A DNA stretch of 64,000 nt from the NCBI RefSeq assembly GCF_002504165.1, contig NZ_CP021404.1:1488001-1552000 (forward strand), given 5' to 3'. This DNA is from Pacificitalea manganoxidans. GTDB taxonomy: Bacteria > Pseudomonadota > Alphaproteobacteria > Rhodobacterales > Rhodobacteraceae. The translations under genes were made by a program, and so were the position numbers. The notes under the pieces are model-generated. The model had not been told where the DNA came from. It did not search any database and saw nothing but the letters and a program-made list of their open reading frames with translations. Shown one piece after another: positions 10,371 through 31,800 of the stretch; positions within the stretch are counted from its first letter, which is position 1, and the number at the start of each line of letters is the position of its first letter.

Positions 10371-10544
10371 CGCGCATCCGCTCTCGGACAAGGCCGTAGG
10401 CCGCGAGGGCGAGCGCCTGCCCGGTCCGGCGGGCTGGTGGTTTGCCACCCCTCGCTGACCTCGGATCAAAGAAGAACTTGGCTGGCATAAAGCGCACCCG
10501 TTCAACCGTGGTTGCGCCACCCCCCGGGCAGGCTCACGTGGCAC
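10371..10544 (+). repeat. Structured dispersed repeat, copy A
   Basis: About 174 bp, nearly repeated 207 bp further on (copy B) and related to copies at about 28.4-28.9 kb. Hairpin 1 has arms CGCTCTCG (10379-10386) and CGAGGGCG (10404-10411) around a conserved ACAAGG(C)CG..GGC loop, which itself holds a GGCC-GTA-GGCC mini-hairpin. Hairpin 2 is GCC-T-GCCCG / CGGGC-T-GGT. Then come a GGTGG/CCACC hairpin, the conserved blocks TGACCTCGGAT and GGCATAAAGCGC, and a closing GGGCAGGCTC that is complementary to the GAGCGCCTGCCC of hairpin 2. It lies between the convergent ends of pntB and gap. Strand is arbitrary. Confidence 0.8.
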
Positions 10545-10577: not shown

Positions 10578-10750
10578 CGCGCATCCGCTCTCGGACAAGG
10601 CCGTAGGCCGCGAGAGCGAGCGCCTGCCCGTCCTCGCGGGCTGGCGCTTGGAAACCTCGCGCTGACCTCGGAGCGGGGAGGGACGTGGCAACATAAAAGC
10701 GCCCCGACCGACCGTTTCAGCGCCACCCCACGGGCAGGCTCACGTCGCAC
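10578..10750 (+). repeat. Structured dispersed repeat, copy B
   Basis: Same layout and direction as copy A, with the first 37 bases identical except one that turns the G-T pair of stem 1 into a full match (CGCTCTCG 10586-10593 / CGAGAGCG 10611-10618). The middle has diverged (GGAGGGACGTGGCAACATAAAAGC). The closing ACGGGCAGGCTCACGT matches copy A's end and pairs with GAGCGCCTGCCCGT upstream. Short tail-like remnants (CAAGCGGAGCGCGCGG) recur at about 10800-10815. No coding function is credible. Confidence 0.8.
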
Positions 10751-16479: not shown

Positions 16480-16589
16480 GGGATCAGTCCTGCCGCAGCG
16501 CGCGCAGGAGGGCAAGAGCGGTTGCGCGGCGCGCGCGGGGCTGCGGGGACTTGCCCGAAGCGGCAGGCTGCGCTATCGCAGGATCACCG

Positions 16590-16746
16590 CACCGGGAGAA
16601 TCCGGCCCAGTGCCGGTGCCGAAGGAGCAACCGCCCCGGTAAACTCTCAGGCATCAGGACCGTTGCGGGCACGACACTCTGGAGAGAGGGGCCATGCGCC
16701 CCCGCCGAAGGGATAACGATCTCAGGCGCCAAGGACAGAGGGGGCA
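16590..16746 (+). ncRNA. Tandem glycine riboswitch upstream of gcvTHP
   Basis: Two glycine aptamers in series. The first runs from GGGAGAATCCGGC through GCCGAAGGAGCAACCGCC, CTCTCAGGCA and AGGACCG to CACTCTGGAGAG; the second runs from there through CGCCGAAGGGATAACG, TCTCAGGCGCCAAGGACAG to AGGGGG. Both hold the conserved CCGAAGG and CAGGC..AAGGAC cores of the gcvT RNA class. Glycine binding normally turns the cleavage system on. The expression platform is likely the hairpin just before gcvT (16810-16827). Confidence 0.93.
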
Positions 16747-23916: not shown

Positions 23917-23992
<76 letters not shown>

Positions 23993-26547: not shown

Positions 26548-28377
26548 ATGCTCGATACCCCGCAAACGCCGCTTGTTTCTATCGAAAACCTGCGTGTCGA
26601 ATTCGACACCAATGACGGGCTGGTCGTGGGCGTCGAGGATGTCTCGTTCGAGATCGGCGCGGGCGAAACCGTCTGCGTGGTGGGCGAAAGCGGCTCGGGC
26701 AAATCGATCTCCTCGTTGTCGTTGATCCGGTTGGTGGAATTCGGCGGTGGCCGCATCGCCAATGGCCAGTTGAATTTCCGGCGGGGCGACAGCGCGGAGA
26801 GCACCATCGACGTGGCGCGCGCCGACAATGCGTTAATGCGCACGATCCGGGGCAATGAGATCGCGATGATCTTTCAGGAGCCGATGAGCGCCCTGAACCC
26901 GGTTTTCACCATCGGGCGGCAACTGTCCGAAGGTCTGCGCGTCCATAAGGGGCTGAGCCGGGAGGCCGCGATGGCCCGCGCGCTGGAGCTGCTGCAACGT
27001 GTGCGCATCCCGGAGCCGGAGCGGCGCCTGAACCAGTATCCGCATGAATTGTCGGGCGGCATGCGGCAGCGCGTGGTGATCGCGATGGCGCTGGCCTGCG
27101 AGCCTCGGCTGTTGATCGCGGATGAGCCGACAACCGCGCTGGATGTGACCATTCAGGCCGAAATCCTCGCCCTGATCGACCGGCTGAAGCGCGAAACCGG
27201 CACGGCGGTGTTGTTCATCACCCATGACATGGCGGTGGTGGCACAGGTCGCGGACCGGGTGGTGGTCATGTATCGCGGCAACAAGGTCGAAGAAGGGCCC
27301 GTCGAGCAGATTTTCGAAGCGCCGAGCCACGACTACACCCGCGCGCTGCTGTCGGCTGTGCCCAAGCTGGGCGAAATGGCGGGCACCGACCGGCCCGCGC
27401 CGCTGAATGTGCTGGGCCAACCCAAGGTCGAGGCCCGCCCCCCCCGCGCCGGGTCTGGCGAGCCCTTGCTGGAAGTGCGCAACCTGACGACCCGTTTCGC
27501 GGTCAAGGGGGGCTTGCTGCGGCGCACGGTGGCGCGAGTGCATGCGGTGGAAGATGTGTCGTTTACGCTGAATGCCGGTGAAACGCTGTCACTGGTCGGG
27601 GAGTCGGGATGCGGCAAGTCCACGACCGGGCGGTCGATCCTGCGGCTGATCGAGCCGGATAGCGGGCAGATCCGGCTGGGCGATACCGATGTGCTGGCCC
27701 TGAGCGAGCGCGAGATGCGTCAGGCCCGGCGCGACATGCAGATGATATTCCAAGACCCCTATAGCTCGCTCAATCCGCAGATGCGGTTGATGGATCAGGT
27801 GGCCGAGCCAATCCGCAATTTCGGGCTAGAACGCGGATCAGCCATCGAGGATCGCGTGGCGGACCTGTTTGACAGGGTGGACCTGCCGCGCAGCTTCCTG
27901 CGCCGGTTCCCGCATGAGCTGTCCGGCGGGCAGCGGCAACGCATCGCCATTGCGCGGGCGCTGGCGCTGAACCCAAAGCTGATCGTCGCGGATGAGGCGG
28001 TCTCGGCGCTGGATGTGTCGATTCAGGCGCAGGTGCTGAACCTGCTTATCGAACTGCAGGCTGATCTGGGAATTTCGCTGCTGTTCATCAGCCATGACAT
28101 GGCGGTGGTGGAGCGGATCAGCCATCAGGCGGCGGTAATGTATCTGGGCCGGATTGTCGAAATCGGCCCGCGCCGCGCGATTTTCGAAGATCCGCGTCAT
28201 CCCTATACGCGTGACCTGCTGTCCGCGGTCCCAATTGCGGACCCCCGCAGACGGAAGCGCGAAAGCGAACTGAACTTCAAACCGATCCCCTCGCCCGTGT
28301 TTCCGCTGGATTATCAGCCGGCGCCGTCGACCTACGATGAGGTGACACCGGGGCATTTCGTGCTGCGCGACGTGTAG
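26548..28377 (+). CDS. Fused two-domain ABC transporter ATPase (dipeptide/oligopeptide type)
   Basis: 609 residues with two complete nucleotide-binding domains in one chain. Domain 1: Walker A GESGSGKS at about 47-54, signature LSGGMRQR at about 168, Walker B LLIADEPT. Domain 2: Walker A GESGCGKS at about 351-358, signature LSGGQRQR at about 457, Walker B LIVADEAV. The layout equals DppD and DppF joined, as in GsiA/YejF. Each domain ends with the family's YTR(A/D)LLSAVP segment. No permease or binding protein gene is adjacent, so it either serves a transporter encoded elsewhere or is a remnant of a longer operon. The structured repeats follow 47 bases downstream. Confidence 0.93.
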   Translation: MLDTPQTPLVSIENLRVEFDTNDGLVVGVEDVSFEIGAGETVCVVGESGSGKSISSLSLIRLVEFGGGRIANGQLNFRRGDSAESTIDVARADNALMRTIRGNEIAMIFQEPMSALNPVFTIGRQLSEGLRVHKGLSREAAMARALELLQRVRIPEPERRLNQYPHELSGGMRQRVVIAMALACEPRLLIADEPTTALDVTIQAEILALIDRLKRETGTAVLFITHDMAVVAQVADRVVVMYRGNKVEEGPVEQIFEAPSHDYTRALLSAVPKLGEMAGTDRPAPLNVLGQPKVEARPPRAGSGEPLLEVRNLTTRFAVKGGLLRRTVARVHAVEDVSFTLNAGETLSLVGESGCGKSTTGRSILRLIEPDSGQIRLGDTDVLALSEREMRQARRDMQMIFQDPYSSLNPQMRLMDQVAEPIRNFGLERGSAIEDRVADLFDRVDLPRSFLRRFPHELSGGQRQRIAIARALALNPKLIVADEAVSALDVSIQAQVLNLLIELQADLGISLLFISHDMAVVERISHQAAVMYLGRIVEIGPRRAIFEDPRHPYTRDLLSAVPIADPRRRKRESELNFKPIPSPVFPLDYQPAPSTYDEVTPGHFVLRDV

Positions 28378-28424: not shown

Positions 28425-28500
28425 GTGCTACAGAACAACCGCCCGCTAACAAGCGAAGCGCGCGGGGCGAGGGCCTGCCCGTTCGGGCGGGCTGGCTCCC
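28425..28500 (+). repeat. Structured dispersed repeat, truncated copy C'
   Basis: Only the 5' half: the lead GTGCTA.AG..CAACCGCC, hairpin 1 (arm CGCCCGC at 28440-28446 against GCGGGGCG at 28462-28469, imperfect) and hairpin 2 (GCCTGCCCG / CGGGCTGGC). It then breaks into the lead of copy C. Confidence 0.7.
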
Positions 28501-28680
28501 ATCGTGCTATAGCGCAACCGCCCCGAACAAGCCGAAGGCGCGGGGCGAGGGCCTGCCCGTTCTGGCGGGATGGCGCTTTGCCACCTTTCGCTGACCTCGG
28601 ATCGGGGAGGAACGGGGCGGGCATAAAGCGCTCCGCTCATCTGTAGCGGCGCCACCCCAAGGGCAGGCTACCCCCGAGCA
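28501..28680 (+). repeat. Structured dispersed repeat, copy C
   Basis: Full unit in the same layout as copies A and B: stem 1 CGCCCCG (28519-28525) / CGGGGCG (28541-28547), loop AACAAGCCGAAGG, hairpin 2 GCCTGCCCG / CGGGATGGC, then TGGCGCTTTGCCA, TGACCTCGGATCGGGGAGGA, GGCATAAAGCGC and the closing AAGGGCAGGCT. Stem 1 differs from A, B and D yet remains fully paired. Confidence 0.82.
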
Positions 28681-28858
28681 AATGAGCAACCGCCCATGGA
28701 CAAGCCGAAGGCGCATGGGCGAGCGCCTGCCCGTTCCGGCGGGCTGGCGCTTCGCCACCCTTGCGCTGATCTCGGAGCGGGGAGGAACGTGGCGGGCATA
28801 AAGCGCACCGCTCACCCGTCGCAGCGCCATCCCACGGGCAGTCTCCCGTCATGCTGCC
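28681..28858 (+). repeat. Structured dispersed repeat, copy D
   Basis: Stem 1 is CGCCCATG (28691-28698) / CATGGGCG (28714-28721), a third fully complementary version. It has loop GACAAGCCGAAGG, hairpin 2 GCCTGCCCG / CGGGCTGGC, TGGCG-CTT-CGCCA, TCGGAGCGGGGAGGAACG, GGCATAAAGCGC and the closing ACGGGCAG. A short remnant of another 5' end (AACCAGCGAAGCGCG) follows at about 28859-28873, just before the tamB stop. Confidence 0.82.
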
Positions 28859-28885: not shown

Positions 28886-31800
28886 TCAATAATCCCGCTC
28901 GAAGAAGATCCCGAGGCTGGTTTCCCCGTTGCTGCCCGCGCCGCCACGGACGGTCACGGTATCGGTCAGGTCGATGTTGAGGTTGATCGTCGTCTCGCCC
29001 TGCGAATTCGCCGTAACATCCGTATAGATATTGTCGGAGATGTATTTGCCGACACGTAGCGCGGCGTTGCCATCCTCGTCCGCGGTCACGTCCAGATCGT
29101 CGACGCCGATGTTTTCCCGCAGTTCCGTCAGCAAACCACCGCTGCCCTGACCGGCCAGCGTCGCCACGGCAGAGGCCAATTGCGCGGCTTGCAGCGGGGA
29201 CAGGTTTTCGATGCTCTGGCCAAAGAACAGACGTGCAAGCACCTCGTCTTCGGGCAGGTCAGGCTCGGAGGTAAAGCTGATTTCGGGATCGGACGCGGTG
29301 CCGCTGATACCAATCGTGGAGGTAAAGCCTGCATTCACCGTGCGGGCGCTCAGCGCGATGGAGGGCGTCAGCCCGCCTTGCAGGAACACCGCGCCTTCGT
29401 CCAAGGTGAAGCGCTTGCCCAGCAGATCGAGCCGCCCGCGCACCAGTTCAAACGAGCCGACCGGGATGATGTCGCTTGTCGTGCCGGTCACCCGCAGTTC
29501 ACCGCCCAGTTCGGCATCAAGCCCACGGCCGCGGATAAAGATCCGGTTCGGCGCGCGGATCAGCACGTTCAGCGCAAACCCGTCCGAGCCGCCATCGCCA
29601 TCAGCGCCGCTGCCGTCCCCATCGCTGTCATCCCCGATCAGCCCGGCCCGTGCACGGGTGGCGCGCACGATTGCAGGCTCGTTGAGATGGGTGATGTCGG
29701 GAATGTCGGTCGAGAAGGCCAAGCCGGTTTCGGGGATGCGGATTTCGGTTTCGCCGATATCGATGGTGCCGCTGATCGCCGCGCCCCCGGTCAACGGCCC
29801 GGCCAGCGACAGCCGCCCATCGAGCGAGGTGCGGTAAAGGTTGGGATCTTCCAGCACCAGATCGCCCAAACGGATCGCCAGGTCGGCGTTGTAGCCATCC
29901 GACAGCGTGATCGGCCCGTCGACATAGAGCCGCCCGCCCGCCATCGCCCGCGCGAATGCGTCGATGGTGGCGCGACCGCCGCCAAGCTGCACGGTGACGT
30001 TGATGTCTTCGAGCGTCTGTCCCAGCGTGGGCAGGCTCATCTGCGCGCCGCGCGTGGTGACCTGCCCGGAGACGGAACCCAGAGCCGGTGCGCCATTGAT
30101 CGACAGGTCGAACTGCGCGGTGCCGGCAAGGCTGCGAGGCGCGAGAACCCGGTTCACCAAGGCCAGCGGCACACTGCCGGAGGCATCCAGATCGACGGTG
30201 GAGAAATCCTGCGCCATGCTGCCCGTGACCCGCGCCTGCGCGCTGCCGGGGCCGCGACTGTCAAGCGCGACGCGCCAGCCGCCGCCCGACACCTCGGCCA
30301 CCGTGCCGTCAACGGCGAGGCTGCCGGACAGACCCGGCGCAAAGGGGGAGATATTGGGCAAGGACAGTTCAATCGCCACATCCGACGCGCCGGAGCCCAC
30401 AACCCCATCCACCGCGCCGCGCGCGCCATAGGGGCCGGTCAGGTCCAGATCGACATCCCACAGGCCGGCGGTTTCCTCGCGCACGTCACCGGCCACGGTA
30501 AGCGGGCCGGACAGACCGGGCGCGAAGGGGGCGATATTGGGCACTGAAAGCCGCGCCTGCACATCCGTTGCGCCTCCCAGAACGACACCGGCGACGCTTG
30601 CTTCGGAGCCATAGGGGCCTGTCGCGTCGAGATCGACCTGATACTGGCCGCCGTCCAGTTCGCGGATGGTGCCAGCGGCCCGCAGCGGGCCGGAGAAGCC
30701 GGGCGCGAGCGGCGCGATATCGGGCAGGTAAACCTGCGCTTCGACATCCGTCGCACCGCCCAGAACGACCCCCTCGACACTGGCATTCGCGCCATAGGGG
30801 CCGGAGGCGTCAAGATCGACGGCAAAACGCCCGCCGTCCAGTTCGCGGATCGTGCCCGCCGCCTGGAGCGGACCGGCATACCCCGGCACCACCGGCGATA
30901 TATCGGGCACGGCAAGCTGCGCTTCGATATCCGTCGCGCCACCGAGCACGACGCCATCGACACTGGCGGTGGAATTATAGGGGCCGGTCAGGTCCAGATC
31001 GACATCGAGCGAGCCGTCGCCCCGTTCCTGCACCCGGCCTTCGGCGGTGAGCGGACCGGAATAGCCGTATTGCGGCAGCAGCGGTGCGATATCGGGCACC
31101 AACAGGGTGATCTGGACATCCGAGGCGCCGATCTCGACCTCGCCATCGACACGGGCGGAGGTGGAGTAGGGGCCATCGACGGCCAGATCCACGTCAAAGC
31201 GGCTGGCGGTCAATTGCGTCACGCGGCCATCCACCGCGACCGGGCCGGAATAGTCCTGATCGGGCAGCAGCGGGGCGATATCGGGCAGCGAGGCCGCCAG
31301 CACCACATCGACATCCTCCGGCGCGATGCGGCCTTCGACGCGCGCTTCCAGATCATAGGGGCCGGTGAGGTCCAGCGCGACGTCGAACGCGTTTTCGCCA
31401 ACTTCCCGCGCCGTACCTTTCAGGGTCACGGGGCCGGAATACTGCTCCAGCACCTCGCCGATTTCGGCAAGCCGCGCGTCGAGCGTCACGTCGCTCTGAC
31501 CGGGCGCGACCAGCCCGGAGGCGGCAAGAGTCACATCGGGGTTGCGCAGATCGATCGTGTCGATCCGCAGTCCGGTTTCGTCGCGCGATACGCGCCCGAC
31601 CAGCGTGGTTTCGCCGTCCAGCAGCGGGTCAAGCTGGGCGATGCCCACGGCCAGATCCTGCGCGGTGACGTCGAGTGCCAGATCGAAGATGCCGCCAAGC
31701 ACGTCGCCGCTGCCTTCCAGATCGGCGCGCACGGCACCTTCCAGCGGCTGACCGATCAGCGGTGCGTAGCGGGCGAGGTTGTTGGCCTCGAAGCTGGCGC

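Follow-up and report, generated by a model that had tools for sequence, protein, structure and literature searches.

What kind of element occupies the spacer between two converging genes of Pacificitalea manganoxidans, an ABC-transporter ATPase ORF that ends at 28377 (+) and a TamB ORF that ends at 28886 (−) (both assigned by Pfam), and has base pairing been selected in it? A first-pass annotation of the window, i.e., the whole 64,000-nt stretch of DNA analyzed here, had described repeats at this site and the same repeat family at another convergent spacer, formed by a transhydrogenase beta subunit ORF (+) and a GAPDH ORF (−) (Pfam). The sequence and coordinates given there hold, and copies were confirmed at both loci, as follows:

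28439 to 28498, + strand: truncated copy with the 5' half only, i.e., stem 1 and blocks A and B (profile match to positions 1–63 of 156, E 2e-6)
28518 to 28669, + strand: full-length copy (covariance model 1–156, 131.8 bits)
28690 to 28844, + strand: full-length copy (covariance model 1–156, 149.9 bits)
10378 to 10534, + strand: full-length copy in the transhydrogenase beta/GAPDH spacer (profile and covariance model)
10585 to 10740, + strand: full-length copy in the transhydrogenase beta/GAPDH spacer (profile and covariance model)

Three versions of a first stem, described as fully complementary, are present as quoted, but complementarity is incomplete in the copy at 10378, where the 3' arm is CGAGGGCG and one pair is T-G. 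The stem 1 arms of the copy at 10585 are perfect (CGCTCTCG/CGAGAGCG). Both reported versions of a mini-hairpin (GGCC-GTA-GGCC and GCC-GAA-GGC) were found in the window sequence. Elsewhere, the window contains a glycine riboswitch aptamer at 16583–16672 (+) (Rfam RF00504, 66.2 bits) and a tRNA gene at 23917–23989 (+).

The core unit is 155 nt long and consists of stem 1, whose loop contains the mini-hairpin, and of a long-range stem that joins the 5' half to the 3' end. On the + strand, the order is s1, a loop usually ending CAAG, the mini-hairpin, s1*, block A, block B, about 75 nt of middle sequence, A1', and B1'; the middle differs between genera and keeps a motif near GGATAAAGCGCG. These parts lie in the copy at 28690 as follows:

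28691 to 28698, + strand: 5' arm of stem 1, s1 (alignment A2, pair counts, sequence)
28704 to 28712, + strand: mini-hairpin GCC-GAA-GGC in the stem 1 loop (sequence, loop census)
28714 to 28721, + strand: 3' arm of stem 1, s1* (alignment A2, pair counts)
28724 to 28734, + strand: block A, the 5' side of the long-range stem (pair counts, covariation)
28745 to 28751, + strand: block B, which pairs with A1' in the long-range fold or, in the local hairpin, with bases preceding and within block A (pair counts)
28823 to 28829, + strand: block A1', partner of block B (pair counts)
28834 to 28844, + strand: block B1', the 3' side of the long-range stem, where one G→T breaks one pair (pair counts, covariation, sequence)

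By a simple search, 97 of 146 copies from the window's genome and 51 of 60 from relatives have a mini-hairpin loop of the form C(RNA)G (R is A or G); length changes in this hairpin are of 2 and 4 nt. Triloops of the C(RNA)G type are very stable in DNA. Blocks A and B could form a local hairpin, which contains a T-T mismatch in most copies. Complementarity also links A to B1' and B to A1', in two nested helices. Each unit holds three occurrences of the block GCGCC(T/A)GCCCGT, in both directions. Most of the 60 copies from relatives carry a third copy of the stem 1 5' arm directly behind B1', and their 3' end can thereby pair with an unbroken stretch of about 20 bases (s1* plus A). This longer form of the long-range stem and stem 1 are therefore mutually exclusive. 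The third arm copy tracks its own locus, with a best 9-mer match of 7.83 of 9 (8 or 9 in 44 of 60 copies) against 7.00 when loci were exchanged (maximum 7.20 in 200 exchanges); it is absent from the window's genome and from one subfamily in genome G018.

We then asked how well these pairings are conserved. The window alone is weak evidence of covariation, since stem 1 variation in its genome falls mostly into two allele classes (one pair is C-G in 70 and T-A in 34 of 110 copies, these being the aligned ones among the 113 full-length copies then identified). The data across genera are strong. All eight pairs of stem 1 changed on both sides in an alignment of 42 copies. At the column of the mismatch, 41 of the 42 copies have a pair between A and B1' (T-A in 31, G-C in 10), and the local partner of A is unpaired in 31; at loci L119 and L103, changes in A disrupt the local hairpin and the long-range pair is kept (alignment A2, pair tables). 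The long-range stem is the better supported second pairing, compared to the local hairpin. The covariation score was 0.193, against 0.058 upon shuffling (matched in 0 of 500 shuffles) and at most 0.062 when the partners were slid along each other.

An alignment of 75 copies from many genera was then scored for all column pairs. It comprised 60 of the 70 hits in relatives and 15 copies from the window's genome, leaving out two duplicate entries for the same genomic copy and another eight hits below 92 bits, some of them partial or on the reverse strand. The top four of 11,325 column pairs were one pair of stem 1 and three of the long-range helix in register. When compared with a tree-based null in our own R-scape-style test (not R-scape itself), two column pairs exceeded all 60 null alignments, and the third and fourth reached only E 0.37 and 0.95. 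Covariation of both stem 1 and the long-range helix across genera thus bears out the proposal that base pairing has been selected; the earlier account of that pairing was right about stem 1 and missed the long-range stem. One result speaks against the long-range stem: RNAalifold, run on the 110 aligned copies, predicted a small 3' hairpin besides stem 1 and the local hairpin, and not that stem. In single-sequence folding, 32 of 41 relatives and 104 of 129 copies from the window's genome favored the long-range stem, a comparison limited to copies that could be anchored (41 of 60 and 129 of 146, respectively). Stem 1 formed in just 5 of the 41 relatives, as expected if the two folds compete.

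Searches with single copies against the window's genome (3.96 Mb in 8 contigs) gave 86 matches with one query and 108 with another, mostly with very small E-values and far more than chance would give. The covariance model used here, R1, derives from 42 copies (18 from this genome and 24 from other genera) and matched all 150 scored candidates there. The genome holds at least 167 copies at E ≤ 1e-6, a lower bound because searches score a capped number of candidates, of which 146 are full length; they fall into 74 clusters of one to six, whose gene contexts come from a simple custom gene finder. Arrays are often head-to-tail with a nearly constant period, the starts of full-length neighbors being a median of 204.5 nt apart (74 pairs). 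The spread is not recent, since identity between copies at different loci reaches 97.4% at most, with a median of 87.7% to the nearest one. Nor are the arrays simply fresh local duplications, because the closest relative lies inside the same array for only 31 of 123 array copies; conversion between loci would also fit this low kinship. Two copies that lie 4 kb apart in opposite orientation (C1 984133 (+) and 988081 (−), locus L072) are 97.4% identical, far above other pairs at different loci, and probably reflect recent exchange or duplication.

Beyond this genome, R1 matched 132 of 295 sampled Rhodobacteraceae genomes at E ≤ 1e-4 and left 163 without a match, with ten candidates scored per genome, so that counts per genome are lower bounds. 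The window's genome alone matched in a class-level sample of 385 genomes (E ≤ 1e-6, seven candidates scored per genome), which includes at least four members of the same family without a match. Deeper counts gave 31 copies in G009, 89 in G207, 18 in G073, 28 in G196, and 3 in G117. Among named carriers, the repeat occurs on plasmids of Salipiger sp. CCB-MM3 and Salipiger abyssi and, with 37% of the query covered, in Sulfitobacter faviae; no feature is annotated at these matches. These names and the TamB relatives point to Rhodobacteraceae as the family sampled. Tandem pairs recur in other genera with their own spacings: 261–264 nt in G018 (4 of 6 adjacent pairs), 232 and 235 nt in G009, and 244 nt in G161. 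Spacers beside the G018 copies (L178, L121, L125) also hold a second palindromic repeat, of the form GTGGGTT..AACCCAC.

The repeat is dispersed, without a tie to one gene. It sits at unrelated housekeeping loci in low-copy genomes (uvrB, lysA-argH, rplB, trpA), and no shared neighbor gene was found among those examined. Some sites recur, i.e., the pheS/pheT gap in G072 and G258 (same orientation), the position behind lepA in G072 and G168 (opposite orientations), and the vicinity of parE in G035 and G076. No empty site was obtained, as the one congener of G161 has a different gene at the site occupied there. No repeat match was found at E ≤ 0.001 in 46 TamB-type loci of other species, at least five of which are titled outside Rhodobacteraceae, nor in phage records with one copy as the query. 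A protein partner beside low-copy elements was considered and rejected, as the small flanking ORFs scanned were mutually unrelated (DMP19-like, AAA/zeta-toxin-like, pyridoxamine-oxidase-like, fasciclin, and others). At L167 6255–6851, an AAA_33/zeta-toxin-like ORF adjoins a repeat copy and rplB in an apparent ribosomal protein operon of G236.

The occurrence at two convergent spacers had suggested a role in 3' end formation, mRNA protection, or chromosome topology. Enrichment in convergent spacers is borne out in part: 35 of the 74 clusters lie in convergent spacers, compared to 14 of 94 background spacers (those of at least 60 nt in sampled stretches of the same genome; p = 6e-6), but another 36 are codirectional (background 52). 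Only three are divergent, compared to 28 in the background (p = 1e-5); the copies are intergenic and do not lie mainly in genes or promoters. Within codirectional spacers, the neighbors of arrays were head-on to replication in 22 of 35 cases compared to 13 of 52 in the background (p = 0.0007); this enrichment was absent in G009 (4 of 18 compared to 31 of 69).

The orientation of the clusters follows replication in the window's genome. Its origin was placed at about 0.147 Mb by a parS pair, identified with the parS consensus, and its terminus at roughly 1.7–2.4 Mb by base skew. Orientation was co-fork in 54 of 72 chromosomal clusters (53–55 with the terminus set between 1.7 and 2.0 Mb) and, in convergent spacers alone, in 25 of 34 (p = 0.009). 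Gene direction cannot explain orientation in convergent spacers. The evidence from other genomes is suggestive: two showed a weaker bias (19 of 29, p = 0.14; 13 of 18, p = 0.10), and in G207 the co-fork count was 46 of 89 with a symmetric terminus and 60 of 89 only with the terminus at 2.3 Mb (range 42 to 60).

One explanation for these patterns, possible though on balance doubtful, is that the repeats are transcribed 3'-UTR elements whose arrays fold within the mRNA and shield it, undergo cleavage by RNase III or RNase E, or aid termination. Their placement behind stop codons is consistent with this, the 3' end of a gene being faced by the element's 3' side in 58 of 74 clusters and by its 5' side in 48 of 74, and so are folds that are stable on both strands. 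ERIC and Correia repeats are reported to act in this way on transcripts (PMC10969869) and the same placement of REPs is read as a sign of RNA function (PMC3733652). Several observations point away from it. No RNA strand is consistently preferred, as the + strand is the more stable in 38 of 60 relatives but in only 44 of 146 copies of the window's genome. Counts of G-U against A-C pairs are contradictory, at 5 to 12 in one helix and 17 to 4 in the other; those for stem 1 were set aside, as one terminal position counted there belongs to the loop in many copies. A canonical terminator lay within 120 nt of the stop codon at 13 of 89 array-facing gene ends and 13 of 127 background ends, which is no difference, and the idea that arrays replace intrinsic terminators was rejected on this unchanged frequency. 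Moreover, the fork orientation in convergent spacers (25 of 34) is not predicted by a purely 3'-end RNA role.

Fork orientation, together with the occurrence of clusters across most of the chromosome, would also suit a DNA site for a chromosome protein such as gyrase or a nucleoid or segregation factor. The thrice-repeated, bidirectional GCGCC(T/A)GCCCGT blocks would then be candidate binding sites and their symmetry would reflect a multimeric protein. We regard this as improbable: compensatory changes between genera (T-A to G-C) alter the block and keep the pairing, which a fixed site would not tolerate, and copy number ranges from 3 to 89 across four deeply scored genomes while 163 of 295 have no match. 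The idea that many loci express one family of trans-acting small RNAs has very little to recommend it; the conserved structure and the unpaired conserved motif speak for it, but there is no Rfam match, no consistent RNA strand, and no sigma-70-like promoter in the two window spacers (sigma-70 type being the only one searched). Equally slight is the chance that the copies are neutral remains of an extinct mobile element with a structure inherited from a few founders, in keeping with the two main stem 1 classes and the lack of fresh copies in the window's genome, because compensatory changes recur across genera and change is very uneven over columns (42 of 151 changed at most twice on a tree of the 146 copies, against a mean of 12.2 and 0.07 such columns expected under a Poisson model), although gene conversion between loci could be another source of the uniform columns.

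The repeat matched no family above the gathering threshold when the whole window was searched against Rfam 15, and a 901-nt array gave four sub-threshold matches only, which excludes a known Rfam family. No description of it was found in the openly licensed papers searched, and PMC2267715 makes no mention of Rhodobacter or relatives. According to PMC3733652, REPs are high-copy intergenic hairpin repeats that are clustered, mostly between convergent or codirectional ORFs, and are defined by a 20–40 bp palindrome with a GTAG or CGTC tag at one end. The present repeat resembles the REP/BIME elements associated with TnpA-REP (RAYT) in being high-copy, intergenic, clustered, and able to fold, with 71 of 74 clusters convergent or codirectional. 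It differs in its unit of about 155 nt with a long-range second fold, its head-to-tail arrays, and the CGTC that occurs inside many copies but not as a terminal tag. A Y1 transposase (PF01797) was not found in the window's genome (the control was positive in 5 of 14 named genomes), and the REP/RAYT reading was rejected on this ground.

Correia/NEMIS and ERIC repeats, set beside the present family by description and not by sequence, share a length of 100–200 bp, more than 100 copies, inverted segments, and intergenic location, and can alter transcripts, according to PMC10969869. The present repeats differ in their arrays, in an inverted repeat that is not terminal at the 5' side, in showing no target-site duplication, and in having no promoter-like site in the window spacers. 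No word of 2–10 nt at any fixed pair of offsets stood above exchanged loci in 60 loci tested for such duplications, which old insertions could have lost. MITEs are likewise short, non-coding, and present in many copies, as are the 155-nt core and its at least 167 copies. A partial counterpart to the terminal inverted repeats of MITEs is an inverted repeat of at least 20 bp in most relatives checked, shortened in the window's genome, outside which the 5' arm and loop of stem 1 lie. IS200/IS605 elements have hairpins on one strand and their insertion is linked to the lagging-strand template, according to PMC6006769, a likeness to what is proposed here; the repeat contains no coding sequence, however, and the window's genome no Y1 protein. 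The family is REP-, Correia-, or ERIC-like in copy number, folding, and placement, and shows neither the transposase and unit features of REPs nor the target-site duplication of MITEs.

Our preferred reading, in which we have roughly even confidence, is that these sequences form a non-coding, non-autonomous, structured interspersed repeat family of Rhodobacteraceae, of the broad REP/MITE kind, shaped by the following spread and constraint. Copies would spread through a fold that the lagging-strand template adopts as single-stranded DNA (for co-oriented copies this template is the + strand), by the action of a putative enzyme. Recognition of single-stranded DNA is likewise a model for REP spread in PMC6006769. 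Selection would have purged insertions in genes and promoters and spared those behind stop codons. Constraint on the fold would persist either because copies have acquired some local function or because folding is needed for spread or sequence exchange. Three observations make single-stranded DNA somewhat likelier than RNA as the level at which the fold is selected: the orientation with the fork, the absence of a consistently preferred RNA strand, and a frequency of terminators that does not differ from the background. More speculative, and on present evidence unlikely as a whole, is a reading with two mutually exclusive folds, either stem 1 with the local hairpin or a long-range stem of at least 20 bp that frees s1, built on three covarying arm copies. 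Such a unit would be a structural switch on lagging-strand-template single-stranded DNA or on transcripts, spreading without a recognized transposase, and its arrays would separate converging transcription units in step with the direction of replication.

The repeat, which lies mostly behind gene ends in this bacterium and many of its relatives, looks like a hitherto undescribed family of small, dispersed elements with an evolutionarily conserved fold. Almost half of the sampled Rhodobacteraceae genera carry it, although this bacterial family is large and much studied. Genomes with a single detected copy to more than 150 form a natural series that bears on how structured repeats spread without a recognized transposase, on why they gather behind gene ends, and on whether the fold matters as DNA or as RNA. 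The three covarying arm copies make the two-state fold directly testable.
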